The notes beneath the pieces were generated by a model, which saw nothing but the letters and a program-made list of their open reading frames with translations, had not been told where the DNA came from and made no database searches. From Candidatus Thorarchaeota archaeon (GTDB lineage: Archaea > Asgardarchaeota > Thorarchaeia > Thorarchaeales > Thorarchaeaceae), in the NCBI GenBank assembly GCA_013388835.1, contig JACAEL010000014.1, positions 62,001-126,000 on the forward strand: a stretch of DNA of 64,000 nt, in the 5' to 3' direction. A program made the position numbers and the translations under genes. Shown in pieces: positions 56,570 to 62,771 of the stretch (position 1 is the first letter of the stretch; each line of letters begins with the position of its first letter).

Positions 56570-59500
56570 TCAGTCTTTTCTTGGACTTCTATCGACCACG
56601 AGGAGAGAGGTGTTCTTGAGAGATGAAACGGAAGTCAGTGTCCCACTGTTTGATGACCCGGGTGTAGGCAGTGTGAACGTTGTCCATACCGCACCCCCGT
56701 CGACCTCCCTCCCATGGCTGACATCGTCCGCAGAGCTTCCGTACACGTATGAGTCGATGACAGTGACTCCATCGGGCTTGATGTAGTTGACCGTGTCGCC
56801 TGCATTATTCAATCCGATGTGAGTCACACTCTGATAGAACACAATGAAACCGTGGGCAGGGATGGTGGTGCCAGTGGGAATCGTATACGGTGCTGTGCCG
56901 CCCTCTATGATGTCATCAAGTATGTACCCCGAGATGTCCACTGTTCGGTCGAGCGGATTGTAGAGTTCAATCCACTCCTCTGTGTACACGACATAGGGGT
57001 CGGGCAGGAATTCGTTGATTACAACCGAGTCCCCACTTGCCAGTGCACCCGAGTTCGGCGCACCAGGCGTAGGTGTATCGAAGGTTGTCCAAACAGCCGA
57101 GCCATCCGTCTCTCTGCCATAGCTGACGTCGTCAGTGGACCCGGTGTAGGTATAGGTGTCAACGACTATGACTCCGTCGGGTCTGATGTAGTTGACGGTG
57201 TCCCCTGCATTGTTTAGCGCGATACCCGTGACACTCTGACAGAACACGATGAAGCCATGTGCGGGGACAATGGTGCCTGCGGGAATTGTGTAGGGTGCTG
57301 TGCCGCCTGAGAGAATGTCGTCAAGTATGTACCCTGAGATGTCAACGGCAGTTCCAAGAGGGTTATGGAGCTCAATCCACTCTTCAGAGTAGATGACATT
57401 CGGGTCTGGTAGGAACTCGTTGATGAGGATGAAGTCCCCATTTCCTGAGCCCGGCCCGTTGGTTTCACCGGGCGTAGGGGTTTCAAAGGTGACCCAAATG
57501 GTTGAACCATCCCTTTCTCTGCCATAGCTGACGTCATCTGCAGAGGTTGTGTATGTGAATGAGTCAACTACCGTTGTCCTGTCAGGTCGTAGGTAGTTGA
57601 CGGTGTCCCCTGCATTGTTTAGCGCGATACCAGTGACACTCTGATAGAACACGATGAAGCCATATGCGGGTATTGTGGTACCCAGTGGGATCACATAGGG
57701 TGCCGTGCCTCCTCCGAGAATGTCATCCAACACATAGCCGGAGACATTGACTCTTGTACCCAGAGGATTGTAGAGTTCAATCCACTCCTCAGTGTAGAGG
57801 GTGTTTGGATCCGGCAGGAACTCGTTGATGAGGACCGAGTCGCCATCCGGCAACACTACGACATTTGCTGCTCCCGGAGTTGGTTTCTCGAATGTGGTCC
57901 AAGTTGGCGCGCCATCTGACTCTCTCCCATAGCTGACATCATCTGCAGACGATGAGTACGTGTATGAGTCGATGACAGTGACCCCATCAGGCTTCAGGAG
58001 GTTTACAGTGTCCCCCGCGTTGTTGAGCCCGATGCCAGTCGCGCTTTGGTACAGCACCAAGTGACCATAGGCGGAGATTACGGTCCCGGCAGGAATCGAG
58101 TATGGATTGGTTCCCCCATTCGTGATGTCGTCAAGTACATACCCGGAGAGGTCTGCGTCTAGAGCCTGAGGGTTGTAGAGTTCAATCCACTCCTCAGTGT
58201 AGAGGGTGTTTGGGTCCGGCAGGAACTCGTTGATGACCACAAGGTCTGTATCGCCGCCCTCTTTGGTGGTGGCCGTCACGACGTCCGACTTTGGCCCCTG
58301 ATTGATGCTCGTGTCCACTGCTGCGACTTCATAAGAGTAGGTCGTAAGTGGGTCTAGGCCCACATCGCTATAGTGTGTCGCGCGAACCTGTGCTATGAGT
58401 AGACCATCTCGGAAGACCCTGTAGTGGGATATGTCCGGTTCTGTGTTCTCGTGCCAAGAGATGTCAATCTGCGACATGCTGATCGCTGTAGCATTCACGC
58501 CAGTAACCTGTACAGGCGGTATGTGGTCTGGTGGGATGGTCGACTGAAGAGTCACAAAGACATCAACAGAGTAGTGGTCTGAGCCGGTGTCGGCAGTAGG
58601 TGTATCACCGCATGTGGAGTTGATGAGTCTGTCTGCAAAGAAGGAGTTTACAACGATGAAGTCAATCCGTGAGAGATATTGCGGGTCTTGATGTCCGTAG
58701 CTGTACCCCGGGTCGGTCGGATTCAGCGTTCGAAAGACATCTTTGAAGATGTGGACTGTAGACGAGTACTGACCATAGACCGGGTCTTCAGGATGTATCT
58801 TCATGGTCATTGGTCCGTATCCCAAGTCTCCAAGAGGCGCAAGGTCCCCCGTGTCGTCAGGTGAGAACGAGTTGAGGTCGCCCATGTACATGATGGGCAC
58901 ATCACCCAGACTATCCATGTAATTGATGATTCCCTCGGTCTCACGCTCTCGCCGATACTCATTGACCTCTCCGGACATCGCCTTGAGATGTGCCCCAATG
59001 ATGTGGACCTCATTGTTGTCTATCAGTACTACCGCCTCAACGAAGTCATGGGTGACCTTGTAGTTGGTACCATTGTCGAGGGGCACTAATGAAATCTGGT
59101 TGAAGGCGACAATTGGAAAACGACTAAGGACTGCCGCACCACTGGTCGAGTATATGACGTCTTGCGCACAGTATCCTTCGTAAGGTATCTCATCAACGAA
59201 GTACGTGTTGAGCTCGTTGATTACCTGATTGAGAATGTAGTCATTGTTGTCATCCCACGACCCGGTCTCGATTAGGACAAGTATGTCCGGGTTCTCTTCC
59301 TTCACCACCTGCTTCCAGTCCGGGTTTGCGCCGGAGGCCTCAATGTTGTAGCTCATGACTTTGAAAGCACCTTGGGGTGGGACACTGTTGTCGACGGTGA
59401 CAGAGATGGTCGCCCTGCCCCAATTGCCTGCGTGGTCCATTGCGCGACAAGTGATTGTGTGATTCCCATCTGCTGTCTCTGTGGTATTCCAGTCGTACGA

Positions 59501-59755
59501 GCTGGTACGTGACTTCAATACCCCGTCAACCAGAATCCTGTACCTGCTTATGCGGTTCTGGTCTACTGCCGTAAATGCAATGCGGGTCATGCCAGAGACC
59601 GTTTCTCCCTCTTGGGGACTGATGATGGTGACCACAGGCGGTCTGACGTCCCGGTGCCACCACCAACCGAATCTGCAGGCATCTGCAGCAGTGAACGTGG
59701 CACCGAGGACTAGAAATGACAACACAAGAAGCATAACGACTCTTCTTTCATCCAA
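56570..59755 (-). CDS. Secreted endonuclease/exonuclease/phosphatase with fibronectin-like and four lamin-tail domains
   Basis: 1061 aa from TTG 59755, with GAGGAGGA 8 nt upstream; this start yields a clean signal peptide (MDERRVVMLLVLSFLVLGAT). Order: Ig-like domain (VVTIISPQEGETVSG), EEP nuclease domain (FKVMSYNIEAS, ILVLIETGSWDD, MYMGDLNSFSPDD, YLSRIDFIVVN, TGSDHYSVDVFV), fibronectin type III domain (VTGVNATAISMSQIDISW), then four near-identical LTD repeats (INEFLPDP, EEWIELYNP, SGYVLDD, GLNNAGDTVN). EEP catalytic Glu, Asp and His are present. LTD domains in secreted nucleases probably anchor them. Likely an extracellular DNase for nutrition. Confidence 0.88.
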   Translation of the reverse strand: MDERRVVMLLVLSFLVLGATFTAADACRFGWWWHRDVRPPVVTIISPQEGETVSGMTRIAFTAVDQNRISRYRILVDGVLKSRTSSYDWNTTETADGNHTITCRAMDHAGNWGRATISVTVDNSVPPQGAFKVMSYNIEASGANPDWKQVVKEENPDILVLIETGSWDDNNDYILNQVINELNTYFVDEIPYEGYCAQDVIYSTSGAAVLSRFPIVAFNQISLVPLDNGTNYKVTHDFVEAVVLIDNNEVHIIGAHLKAMSGEVNEYRRERETEGIINYMDSLGDVPIMYMGDLNSFSPDDTGDLAPLGDLGYGPMTMKIHPEDPVYGQYSSTVHIFKDVFRTLNPTDPGYSYGHQDPQYLSRIDFIVVNSFFADRLINSTCGDTPTADTGSDHYSVDVFVTLQSTIPPDHIPPVQVTGVNATAISMSQIDISWHENTEPDISHYRVFRDGLLIAQVRATHYSDVGLDPLTTYSYEVAAVDTSINQGPKSDVVTATTKEGGDTDLVVINEFLPDPNTLYTEEWIELYNPQALDADLSGYVLDDITNGGTNPYSIPAGTVISAYGHLVLYQSATGIGLNNAGDTVNLLKPDGVTVIDSYTYSSSADDVSYGRESDGAPTWTTFEKPTPGAANVVVLPDGDSVLINEFLPDPNTLYTEEWIELYNPLGTRVNVSGYVLDDILGGGTAPYVIPLGTTIPAYGFIVFYQSVTGIALNNAGDTVNYLRPDRTTVVDSFTYTTSADDVSYGRERDGSTIWVTFETPTPGETNGPGSGNGDFILINEFLPDPNVIYSEEWIELHNPLGTAVDISGYILDDILSGGTAPYTIPAGTIVPAHGFIVFCQSVTGIALNNAGDTVNYIRPDGVIVVDTYTYTGSTDDVSYGRETDGSAVWTTFDTPTPGAPNSGALASGDSVVINEFLPDPYVVYTEEWIELYNPLDRTVDISGYILDDIIEGGTAPYTIPTGTTIPAHGFIVFYQSVTHIGLNNAGDTVNYIKPDGVTVIDSYVYGSSADDVSHGREVDGGAVWTTFTLPTPGSSNSGTLTSVSSLKNTSLLVVDRSPRKD
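56630..58255 (-). repeat. Four tandem ~408-bp repeats encoding lamin-tail domains
   Basis: The phrase encoding INEFLPDP recurs near 57000, 57410, 57820 and 58220, a period of about 408 bp (~136 residues). Repeats also share the NNAGDTVN and YGRE segments. The high similarity points to recent tandem duplication or gene conversion. Confidence 0.8.
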
Positions 59756-59812
59756 TTGCTGTTCCTCCTCGCGCGAACAGAACCAGCATCTCCACTTGCA
59801 GTATGGCGTTGC

Positions 59813-59827
59813 CCAGTTATAAACTGG
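59813..59827 (-). promoter_or_regulatory. Palindrome over TATA box of the secreted nuclease gene
   Basis: CCAGTT-ATA-AACTGG is a perfect 6+6 inverted repeat over the TATA-like TTTATAA, about 60-70 nt before TTG 59755. It suggests repression by a dimeric regulator, as for the toxin-antitoxin promoter at 53.2 kb. Confidence 0.5.
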
Positions 59828-59975
59828 ACGGGGCATGCACCCCACTCCTGAAACTCTGTCCTTTACCACATGTTGTCTTGAAACAGCCGTGTGCTAACAC
59901 AGGGCTGCCAGAATACAGGTCCTAGGCTGAAACCACCTCTGGCCGAAAGATGAATTACCCGGCTGTCAGTCACAT

Positions 59976-60413
59976 ATGAATGGTGATAAGTTGAAGAACT
60001 CTGTACCTGTTGTCCTATGTCTGTTGGGAGGTCTTCTCCTTCTACAGGCAAGTTGGCTAGGTGACATTGGTTTCCTCGCCGTGATAATCGCCTATGCTCA
60101 GACTGCATTCTCCGCGATTGCAGATGCCATGGGTATCCTCCTCCGGGTATTGCTGTGGATTGCAGCGCTAGGAGGTATCGCCGTGATTGTCGGTTCAATT
60201 CTAATCGCTGTGAACAGGATACGCTTTGCCAAGTTCATCATTGGACTGGGTGCAGGCATCGGGCTCATCGGTCTGATCATCATGCTGGTCACCGTGGTGG
60301 TCTCCGGCGGCATCGCTGAGCTGCTGGGGCTTGCTGTCCTAGTCTCACAGTCCATTGCTTGGATTGGAGTCATCCTCACAGTGATTGGTCGCAGGGCGAT
60401 CAAGACCGAATAG
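59976..60413 (+). CDS. Four-helix small membrane protein
   Basis: 145-aa hydrophobic protein with about four helices (~8-28, ~52-78, ~85-110, ~115-138), rich in Gly and Ile (GLGAGIGLIGLIIMLVTVVV). No family recognised. ATG 59976; weak ribosome-binding signal. It lies divergent from the secreted nuclease gene. Confidence 0.55.
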   Translation: MNGDKLKNSVPVVLCLLGGLLLLQASWLGDIGFLAVIIAYAQTAFSAIADAMGILLRVLLWIAALGGIAVIVGSILIAVNRIRFAKFIIGLGAGIGLIGLIIMLVTVVVSGGIAELLGLAVLVSQSIAWIGVILTVIGRRAIKTE

Positions 60414-60560: not shown

Positions 60561-61607
60561 CTACCTCTCCCAGTACCTGAGGTCAACAATCGACTTGGCA
60601 TAGACGCTGGGCTTCGGTTTCAATGGGAAGATGCCTCCCGGATTCACCGGAACCCCCCTCTGGTCCTCAGCTATTATCTCAGCTCCCTGAGGTCCAAAGC
60701 CGTCTAGAATGTCTTGTCTCCTGACCATTGGGAACAGCCTCAGGAGGTCGACCCACTTCACTCGTGCTGATTCCCAGATTCTCCTGAACGAGGGGTCCCA
60801 TTTCTCAGTATTGTCGAAGAGCGGTCTTCCCGTTGCCGGGTTCACCAAGTAGAACTTCGCTGTTCCTCTGGCTGCAGTGTGGTAGTAGCCAAGCACTGGT
60901 ATGACTGATACTCTGCTGGACTTCTGCATGATTGACCTCAGCTTCTCACAAGCTCTGAGCTGATCTTGGTACAGGACCGAGCGTTCACCAGTAAGAACAA
61001 CAAACTCCAGATCACTCGTACCTTTGAGAGAGAGCTCGAAGAGGAAGTGCAATCTCAGAGTCTCTAGAGGTTCGAGGTCAACCTTTCCAGTTCCAATGTC
61101 AACACCATTCGTGTGAATGACAATCGGGAGTTGTCTCAGCGTGCTGTCGGCCTCGACGAGTCTGAAGAACTCCATTAGTTCTCCCCAGTACATGGTCGGT
61201 TCGCCGCCGAGAAAACGCATGAAGGTGCGCTGGGGAATGCACTCTCTAATGACTGCAGAGGCGTCATTGAGCATATCGAATGGGCTTCGCTCGGCAGCTG
61301 TCTCTCTTGTCTTGTCAGTCGGCGTACTGACAGTGCTGAACCGCGAGCCCAAGTTGGTCCCAACCAGCTCCCAGCGTATCTCCCAGTAGTTACCACTGTT
61401 AAGAATCAGGCGTCCAGCGTTCTCCTTTCTGAGGCGTACCAAGAGTCTTTCCTCGCACCAGTTGTGTCCAGTGCAAGCGTCCGAGCCAACAGAGAAGAAT
61501 CTTCCCGAAACCCCGGTGTGCTGTTCGCCACTTCGATTGGTCTGTCGTCCAAAGGCATGCTTCCCATCTTCAGGTCTGCTGACTCGTGATGTACCATGAA
61601 AACGCAT
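60561..61607 (-). CDS. Radical-SAM-like protein that appears to lack the cluster cysteines
   Basis: 348 aa from ATG 61607; the frame is open upstream to 61787 but that part looks non-coding. LIL-x-GNYWEIRWELVGTNL is followed by GSRFSTVSTPTDKTRE where a radical SAM enzyme has CxxxCxxC: Gly87, Ser91 and Ser94 fall exactly at positions 1, 5 and 8. Codons GGC, AGC and AGT are each one base from TGC/TGT. The radical SAM hallmark FLGGEPTMYW follows at the normal distance (134-138), and IVIHTNGVDIG fits the later SAM strand. An extra Cys pair DACTGHNWC (45, 51) lies earlier. Probably a pseudoenzyme or a recently inactivated gene. Confidence 0.6.
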   Translation of the reverse strand: MRFHGTSRVSRPEDGKHAFGRQTNRSGEQHTGVSGRFFSVGSDACTGHNWCEERLLVRLRKENAGRLILNSGNYWEIRWELVGTNLGSRFSTVSTPTDKTRETAAERSPFDMLNDASAVIRECIPQRTFMRFLGGEPTMYWGELMEFFRLVEADSTLRQLPIVIHTNGVDIGTGKVDLEPLETLRLHFLFELSLKGTSDLEFVVLTGERSVLYQDQLRACEKLRSIMQKSSRVSVIPVLGYYHTAARGTAKFYLVNPATGRPLFDNTEKWDPSFRRIWESARVKWVDLLRLFPMVRRQDILDGFGPQGAEIIAEDQRGVPVNPGGIFPLKPKPSVYAKSIVDLRYWER

Positions 61608-61820: not shown

Positions 61821-62771
61821 GTGCAGACCGCGCAAACGGAGGTTGGTACTTTGGCCATCGAAGTCCACAATGAGGAAGCATCCACATCGGGCGCCGATAA
61901 GGCAGCGGCAGTACTAGAGGTGATTTTCGTCCGTTTCGTAATCTACGGTCTGCTTGCCCTGTGGTTGGTTCAACTCATGTGCGGGACCCCCACTCCCAAT
62001 CCATTCCCGATAGAAGCCGCATACACTGTGGGAGCCCTGTGGTTTGTGGTTCCGTTTGTACTGATATACGGACTCAGACGGAACGCTCAAGAATACGGGC
62101 TTTCTACTCAGTCCAGTAGACAGAGCATCGACCTTGCGCTCAGTGCATTTCCATACATGATACTCGCCGAGAATGCTGTGATGATGCTACTAATCACGAT
62201 AGGCTGGTCATACCTAGAGCCACAAGGTGCTCTTGTCCTGACGGCCTCCTTCACACTTGCCCTGCTGCTGATTGTTCGGATGGTCTCCCGCAAGTACTCA
62301 TCGTTTCATGACATCCAGATTCCTGACAACAAGCACAGTAGCAATGTGCTTGTCATTCTCCTACTGCTCTGCCTGCCAATCGGACTTGGAATCGTGCCAG
62401 GCAAACTATCACTGCTGCTTGTTTCTACTGTGGTGTGGCAGTTTGTCATCTCCGGGTTCGGAGAAGAGGTGTTCTTCCGTGGCTACATCCAGTCAAGACT
62501 GAATGCGGCATTCGGTCGTCCATACGAGTGGAAAGGGATCAGGTTCGGCGCCGGACTCTTCATGACGGCAGCCCTCTTTGGTATCACTCATATGCTCAAC
62601 ACAGCGAACATCTGGCTGGGCGACTTCAACTTGGCATGGTGGTGGGGAACGTTCACATTCGTGGGTGGCTTGCTGTTGGGGCTGCTGCGTGAGAAGACCG
62701 GCTCAGTGCTCGCACCTGCCACACTTCATGGTCTTGAGGCAGTGGGTGAAGGCCTTGCACTGCTCTTCTAG
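61821..62771 (+). CDS. CPBP-family intramembrane metalloprotease (Rce1/Abi-like)
   Basis: 316-aa membrane protein with about eight helices. Motif 1 GFGEEVFFRGYIQSRL (EExxxR), motif 2 AALFGITHML (FxxxH) and motif 3 LHGLEAVGEG identify the CPBP glutamic/metallo-type intramembrane protease family that includes CAAX prenyl endopeptidase Rce1. GTG 61821 is divergent from the radical-SAM-like gene. Substrate unknown. Confidence 0.87.
   Translation: MQTAQTEVGTLAIEVHNEEASTSGADKAAAVLEVIFVRFVIYGLLALWLVQLMCGTPTPNPFPIEAAYTVGALWFVVPFVLIYGLRRNAQEYGLSTQSSRQSIDLALSAFPYMILAENAVMMLLITIGWSYLEPQGALVLTASFTLALLLIVRMVSRKYSSFHDIQIPDNKHSSNVLVILLLLCLPIGLGIVPGKLSLLLVSTVVWQFVISGFGEEVFFRGYIQSRLNAAFGRPYEWKGIRFGAGLFMTAALFGITHMLNTANIWLGDFNLAWWWGTFTFVGGLLLGLLREKTGSVLAPATLHGLEAVGEGLALLF

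Follow-up and report, generated by a model that had tools for sequence, protein, structure and literature searches.

A Radical SAM Protein without the Three Cluster Cysteines in a Thorarchaeota Archaeon: A Candidate Pseudoenzyme

The window analyzed here, a stretch of 64,000 nucleotides from a Candidatus Thorarchaeota archaeon, carries on its minus strand a gene that appears to encode a protein of the radical SAM (rSAM) fold devoid of the three cysteine ligands of the [4Fe-4S] cluster. Its most likely extent is 60561–61442 (293 amino acid residues; TTG start, stop at 60561–60563), as judged from codon usage, an SD-like site, and the match to PF04055. We consider this to be a maintained gene, the product of which works as a pseudoenzyme, and place the probability of this reading at approximately 0.6. 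The cluster is what defines the rSAM enzymes; were a member to be maintained after losing the three ligands, with its SAM-binding motifs kept, it would show what other uses the barrel has. Annotation pipelines will take the protein for an active rSAM enzyme. It is one sequence for which no ortholog was found, and provides a lead rather than an established system.

Reading Frame and Domain Match

Translation reveals an open reading frame (ORF) of 348 codons (60561–61607, minus strand) with no internal stops, which occurs only once in the genome; the residue numbers used below are those of the 348-residue form. A Pfam search gave a match to Radical_SAM (PF04055) of 31.6 bits against a cut-off of 29.5, restricted to profile positions 35–152 and therefore starting after the cluster loop, while no NCBIfam model came near its own cut-off. 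The product is, on the strength of its sequence, a divergent rSAM protein. Its translation and alignment with homologs indicate that GGEPT, the SAM contact motif (residues 134–138; 61194–61208), TNG (residues 166–168; 61104–61112), and SLKG (residues 193–196; 61020–61031), the counterpart of the family S-x-K-G, are all retained on the minus strand. Modeling with AlphaFold2 resulted in pLDDT values of 32 and 37 (inputs: the single sequence and a six-row alignment).

Start Codon and N-Terminus

In the rSAM frame the codon usage is non-coding-like from 61787 to approximately 61460 and coding-like from about 61455. The top-scoring start by this measure is the TTG at 61442, which, on inspection of the start candidates near the N-terminus, is the only one with an SD-like site (GAGG, 61451–61454, minus strand); such sites are not universal in the window, and GAGG is support for this start rather than proof. 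The N-terminal extension (residues 1–55; 61443–61607, minus strand) combines non-coding-like codon usage with no homology to the relatives. Because codon usage and the sole SD-like site favor TTG 61442, residues 1–55, Cys45 and Cys51 included, are probably not translated in the rSAM frame. The suggestion in the earlier note that these two cysteines supply a substitute metal site has been set aside since they probably precede the start codon; were they translated, they would lie upstream of the first barrel strand.

A second ORF, of 63 codons in the +1 frame (61409–61597, minus strand), overlaps the region in which the rSAM-like gene probably starts, and its first 30 codons are coding-like. The score of the stretch 61597–61515 was reached by none of the false-frame windows of real genes and by 3% of intergenic windows. 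It may serve as a leader ORF, represent a shifted N-terminus, or have arisen by chance. The peptide bears a visual likeness to "DPIELAEAT," but as a family N-terminus it failed the HMM test. A shifted or damaged N-terminus of the rSAM-like gene keeps some small likelihood.

The Cluster Loop

Cysteine is absent from residues 52–121, and consequently from the cluster loop. In place of CxxxCxxC the protein has T84-N-L-G-S88-R-F-S91 (61335–61358, minus strand): in four alignments and one HMM, covering several subfamilies, the stretch G-T84-N-L-G-S88-R-F90-S91 aligns on G-C-N-L-x-C-x-(F/Y)-C. With the cysteine columns masked, the HMM scored 79 bits instead of 65, in the same register and with a high posterior; the masked and unmasked HMMs follow slightly different column rules, so that the gain of 14 bits is indicative rather than exact. 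The earlier note had set Gly87, Ser91, and Ser94 on the three cysteines, a register three residues too far downstream, which the HMMs rule out both with the cysteine columns and with them masked. It had also looked to an alignment moving the loop elsewhere as a challenge to the loss; the register does shift by three residues, and the loop is cysteine-free in either position. Its description of an rSAM protein without cluster cysteines is borne out by the above-cut-off PF04055 match, the cysteine-free loop, and GGEPT.

That each of the three codons lies one base from a cysteine codon is correct for AGC (S91), but ACC (T84) requires at least two changes and TCG (S88) two. The total of at least five base changes at three codons points to an old loss rather than a recent point event.

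Homologs and the Rarity of the Loss

Whole-genome searches, with E-values calculated per genome, covered the phylum (228 genomes), a set of "relatives" (393 genomes), and five further archaeal groupings; approximately 800 archaeal genomes beyond the phylum were covered. The homologs found are distant (25–41% identity) and partial, aligning mostly over residues 80–244; there was no close homolog in the 228 phylum genomes or the approximately 800 others. Neither the window protein nor alignments that include it retrieved a homolog in scans of genome contigs, viral contigs, and plasmids; these scans employ short exact peptide patterns and, by our estimate, would overlook many relatives with less than about 60% identity, and the last genome-contig scan, run with a single pattern, is weak as a negative. 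Scan alignments A2–A4 consisted of P0001 plus artificial filler rows that steer the choice of pattern and are not real homologs. A viral-contig scan with the relatives' alignment A7 recovered five distant rSAM proteins, which were used solely in structure prediction.

The cysteine triad is kept in all 58 non-redundant homologs. Twelve columns of their alignment are at least 98% conserved, and the window protein has retained nine of the nine that are not cysteine and lost exactly the three that are. The other PF04055 proteins of the genome also possess the triad (26/26), with canonical or longer first spacing. The comparison with closest homologs proposed in the earlier note thus yielded 58 sequences with CxxxCxxC, none of them close, and no sequence sharing the loss. 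A number of further conserved positions have also changed: His165 replaces a 97%-conserved Glu beside TNG, and Glu143 replaces a conserved His.

Maintenance or Decay

Codon usage across the 293-codon frame scores 0.24 per codon, which is typical for the genes of the window. In neutral simulations from a cysteine-bearing ancestor the median number of changes needed to lose all three cysteines was 593, and only 0.05% of 4000 runs combined this loss with an open frame and nine of nine invariant positions (P about 5e-4). The simulation was run with a rate that is the same throughout and with transitions making up half of the changes; its neglect of indels renders it lenient. The open frame, the typical codon usage, and the simulation indirectly favor constraint over decay; that constraint may have acted mostly before the cysteines were lost, the tests reading alike for constraint before and after.

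The strongest alternative, which we nevertheless regard as unlikely, is an rSAM gene that was inactivated recently or is decaying, its use and its cysteines lost and its N-terminus possibly damaged, the rest not yet broken up. The N-terminus may originally have been encoded by the coding-like +1-frame stretch, which is now out of frame; neither a clear start signal nor a TATA-like box was found upstream of ATG 61607, and no ortholog shows conservation of the cysteine-less state. Against this stand the unbroken frame with its typical codon usage, the restriction of the loss to cysteine among near-invariant columns, the simulated P value, and the lack of homology between the +1-frame peptide and the family N-terminus.

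More improbable is a re-purposed barrel, in which other residues, for example His165 or acidic residues, provide a different chemistry or metal site. The replacements at positions 165 and 143 indicate that the pocket has changed, but the 293-residue form has only two cysteines (C122 and C222) and no apparent cysteine pair or histidine cluster, the models provide no usable structure, and there are no homologs in which new residues could be seen to be conserved.

An artefact of sequencing or assembly, or paired frameshifts across the loop masking a CxxxCxxC, might be suspected from the dip in codon usage over 61380–61320 and from an assembly in 125 contigs, but is very improbable given that at least five substitutions would be required, that real genes dip as low in 8.7% of their true-frame windows, that the HMM alignment in the called frame crosses the loop without a break or gap, and that hidden compensating frameshifts are ruled out, since neither other frame offers a cysteine triad (one has no cysteine, the other a single cysteine and a stop).

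A maintained pseudoenzyme remains our preferred explanation. The selected pseudoenzyme of the earlier note is the better reading of the unbroken frame, the codon usage, and the cysteine-only loss, though short of a demonstration, no close homolog having emerged from the genomes searched. Counted against it are the want of an ortholog, by which selection on the cysteine-less state is seen only indirectly, a very long branch of 3.1 changes per site (its placement uncertain), the E165H and H143E replacements, the uncertain N-terminus, and the low-pLDDT models.

Possible Role of the Protein

In the established rSAM mechanism the cluster ligands are needed for radical chemistry. A protein that has lost the three cysteines holding the SAM-binding [4Fe-4S] cluster should not be able to form the 5′-deoxyadenosyl radical, from which we surmise a pseudoenzyme role. 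The barrel has probably kept the ability to bind a ligand, which may be SAM, contacted through GGEPT, or the ancestral substrate. The protein would be a partner for binding, presentation, or regulation and not a catalyst. That its own partner might be one of the active rSAM proteins in the cell is a guess. Somewhat doubtful, in our estimation, is the broader proposal of a lineage of rSAM pseudoenzymes, new and conserved, in which the SAM-binding barrel is kept and the three ligands are swapped, serving as an archaeal SAM or substrate sensor or partner, with orthologs in genomes beyond those searched.

Comparison with Known Families

As a kind, rSAM pseudoenzymes are already recognized: the curated name of NCBIfam TIGR04347 (pseudo_SAM_Halo) denotes an rSAM-derived, non-radical pseudo-SAM/SPASM protein. 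The likeness is known by name only; TIGR04347 gave no match to the window protein up to an E-value of 10, and the latter, with its two cysteines, lacks a cysteine-rich SPASM-like C-terminus. Nothing usable on rSAM pseudoenzymes was found among the open-access papers searched.

Three subfamilies among the distant homologs align with the window protein. The L035-type (L035, L037, L041, L046, and L075–L077), which includes the best single match, shares the core and the following V-x-P-V-L-G-x-x-H, whereas all of its members have CN[LF]xCxxC and more cysteines upstream, and overall identity is only approximately 26%. Just upstream of its CxxxCxxC this subfamily has a conserved C-x(8-9)-C-x3-C, which may constitute an auxiliary Fe-S or zinc site.

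The L003/L036-type (GC[NC]LxCxFCW ... ETNG ... VSLKG) matches the window protein by HMM across the whole core, but all its members possess the cysteine triad and a YRFR...YGG...TADC N-terminus, both of which are absent from the window protein. The only models to which this type bears similarity, and a weak one, are those of MoaA. A homolog of this type from the same genome, L020 (G000:C38:19488-20021), has CNFRCVFC, and GAEPT in place of GGEPT; it may be an active counterpart of the window protein.

L042 and L043 match the window protein over a C-terminal stretch (FVHPRTRESMF-W-x-x-x-F / LVNPATGRPLF-W-x-x-x-F), whereas their CNxRCPFC and cysteine-rich C-terminus, a possible auxiliary cluster, have no equivalent in it.

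Genomic Neighborhood

The divergent neighbor (61821–62771, plus strand) encodes an Rce1-like (CPBP) intramembrane protease (PF02517, 58.9 bits). Its EExxxR motif is kept (GEEVFFRG), and the enzyme looks catalytically intact from its sequence. On the other side lies a convergent gene for a small membrane protein (59976–60413). With a divergent protease gene and a convergent membrane protein gene as its neighbors, the rSAM-like gene stands alone, outside any operon. The pairing of a pseudoenzyme with an intramembrane protease, as envisaged in the earlier note, is accurate in that the PF02517 gene adjoins, but this gene is on the divergent strand and not co-operonic, and no functional link was found. 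Farther along the minus strand (56570–59869) is a gene for a protein of 1099 amino acid residues, which combines an endonuclease/exonuclease/phosphatase domain, a bacterial Ig domain, and four lamin tail domains with near-identical spacing.
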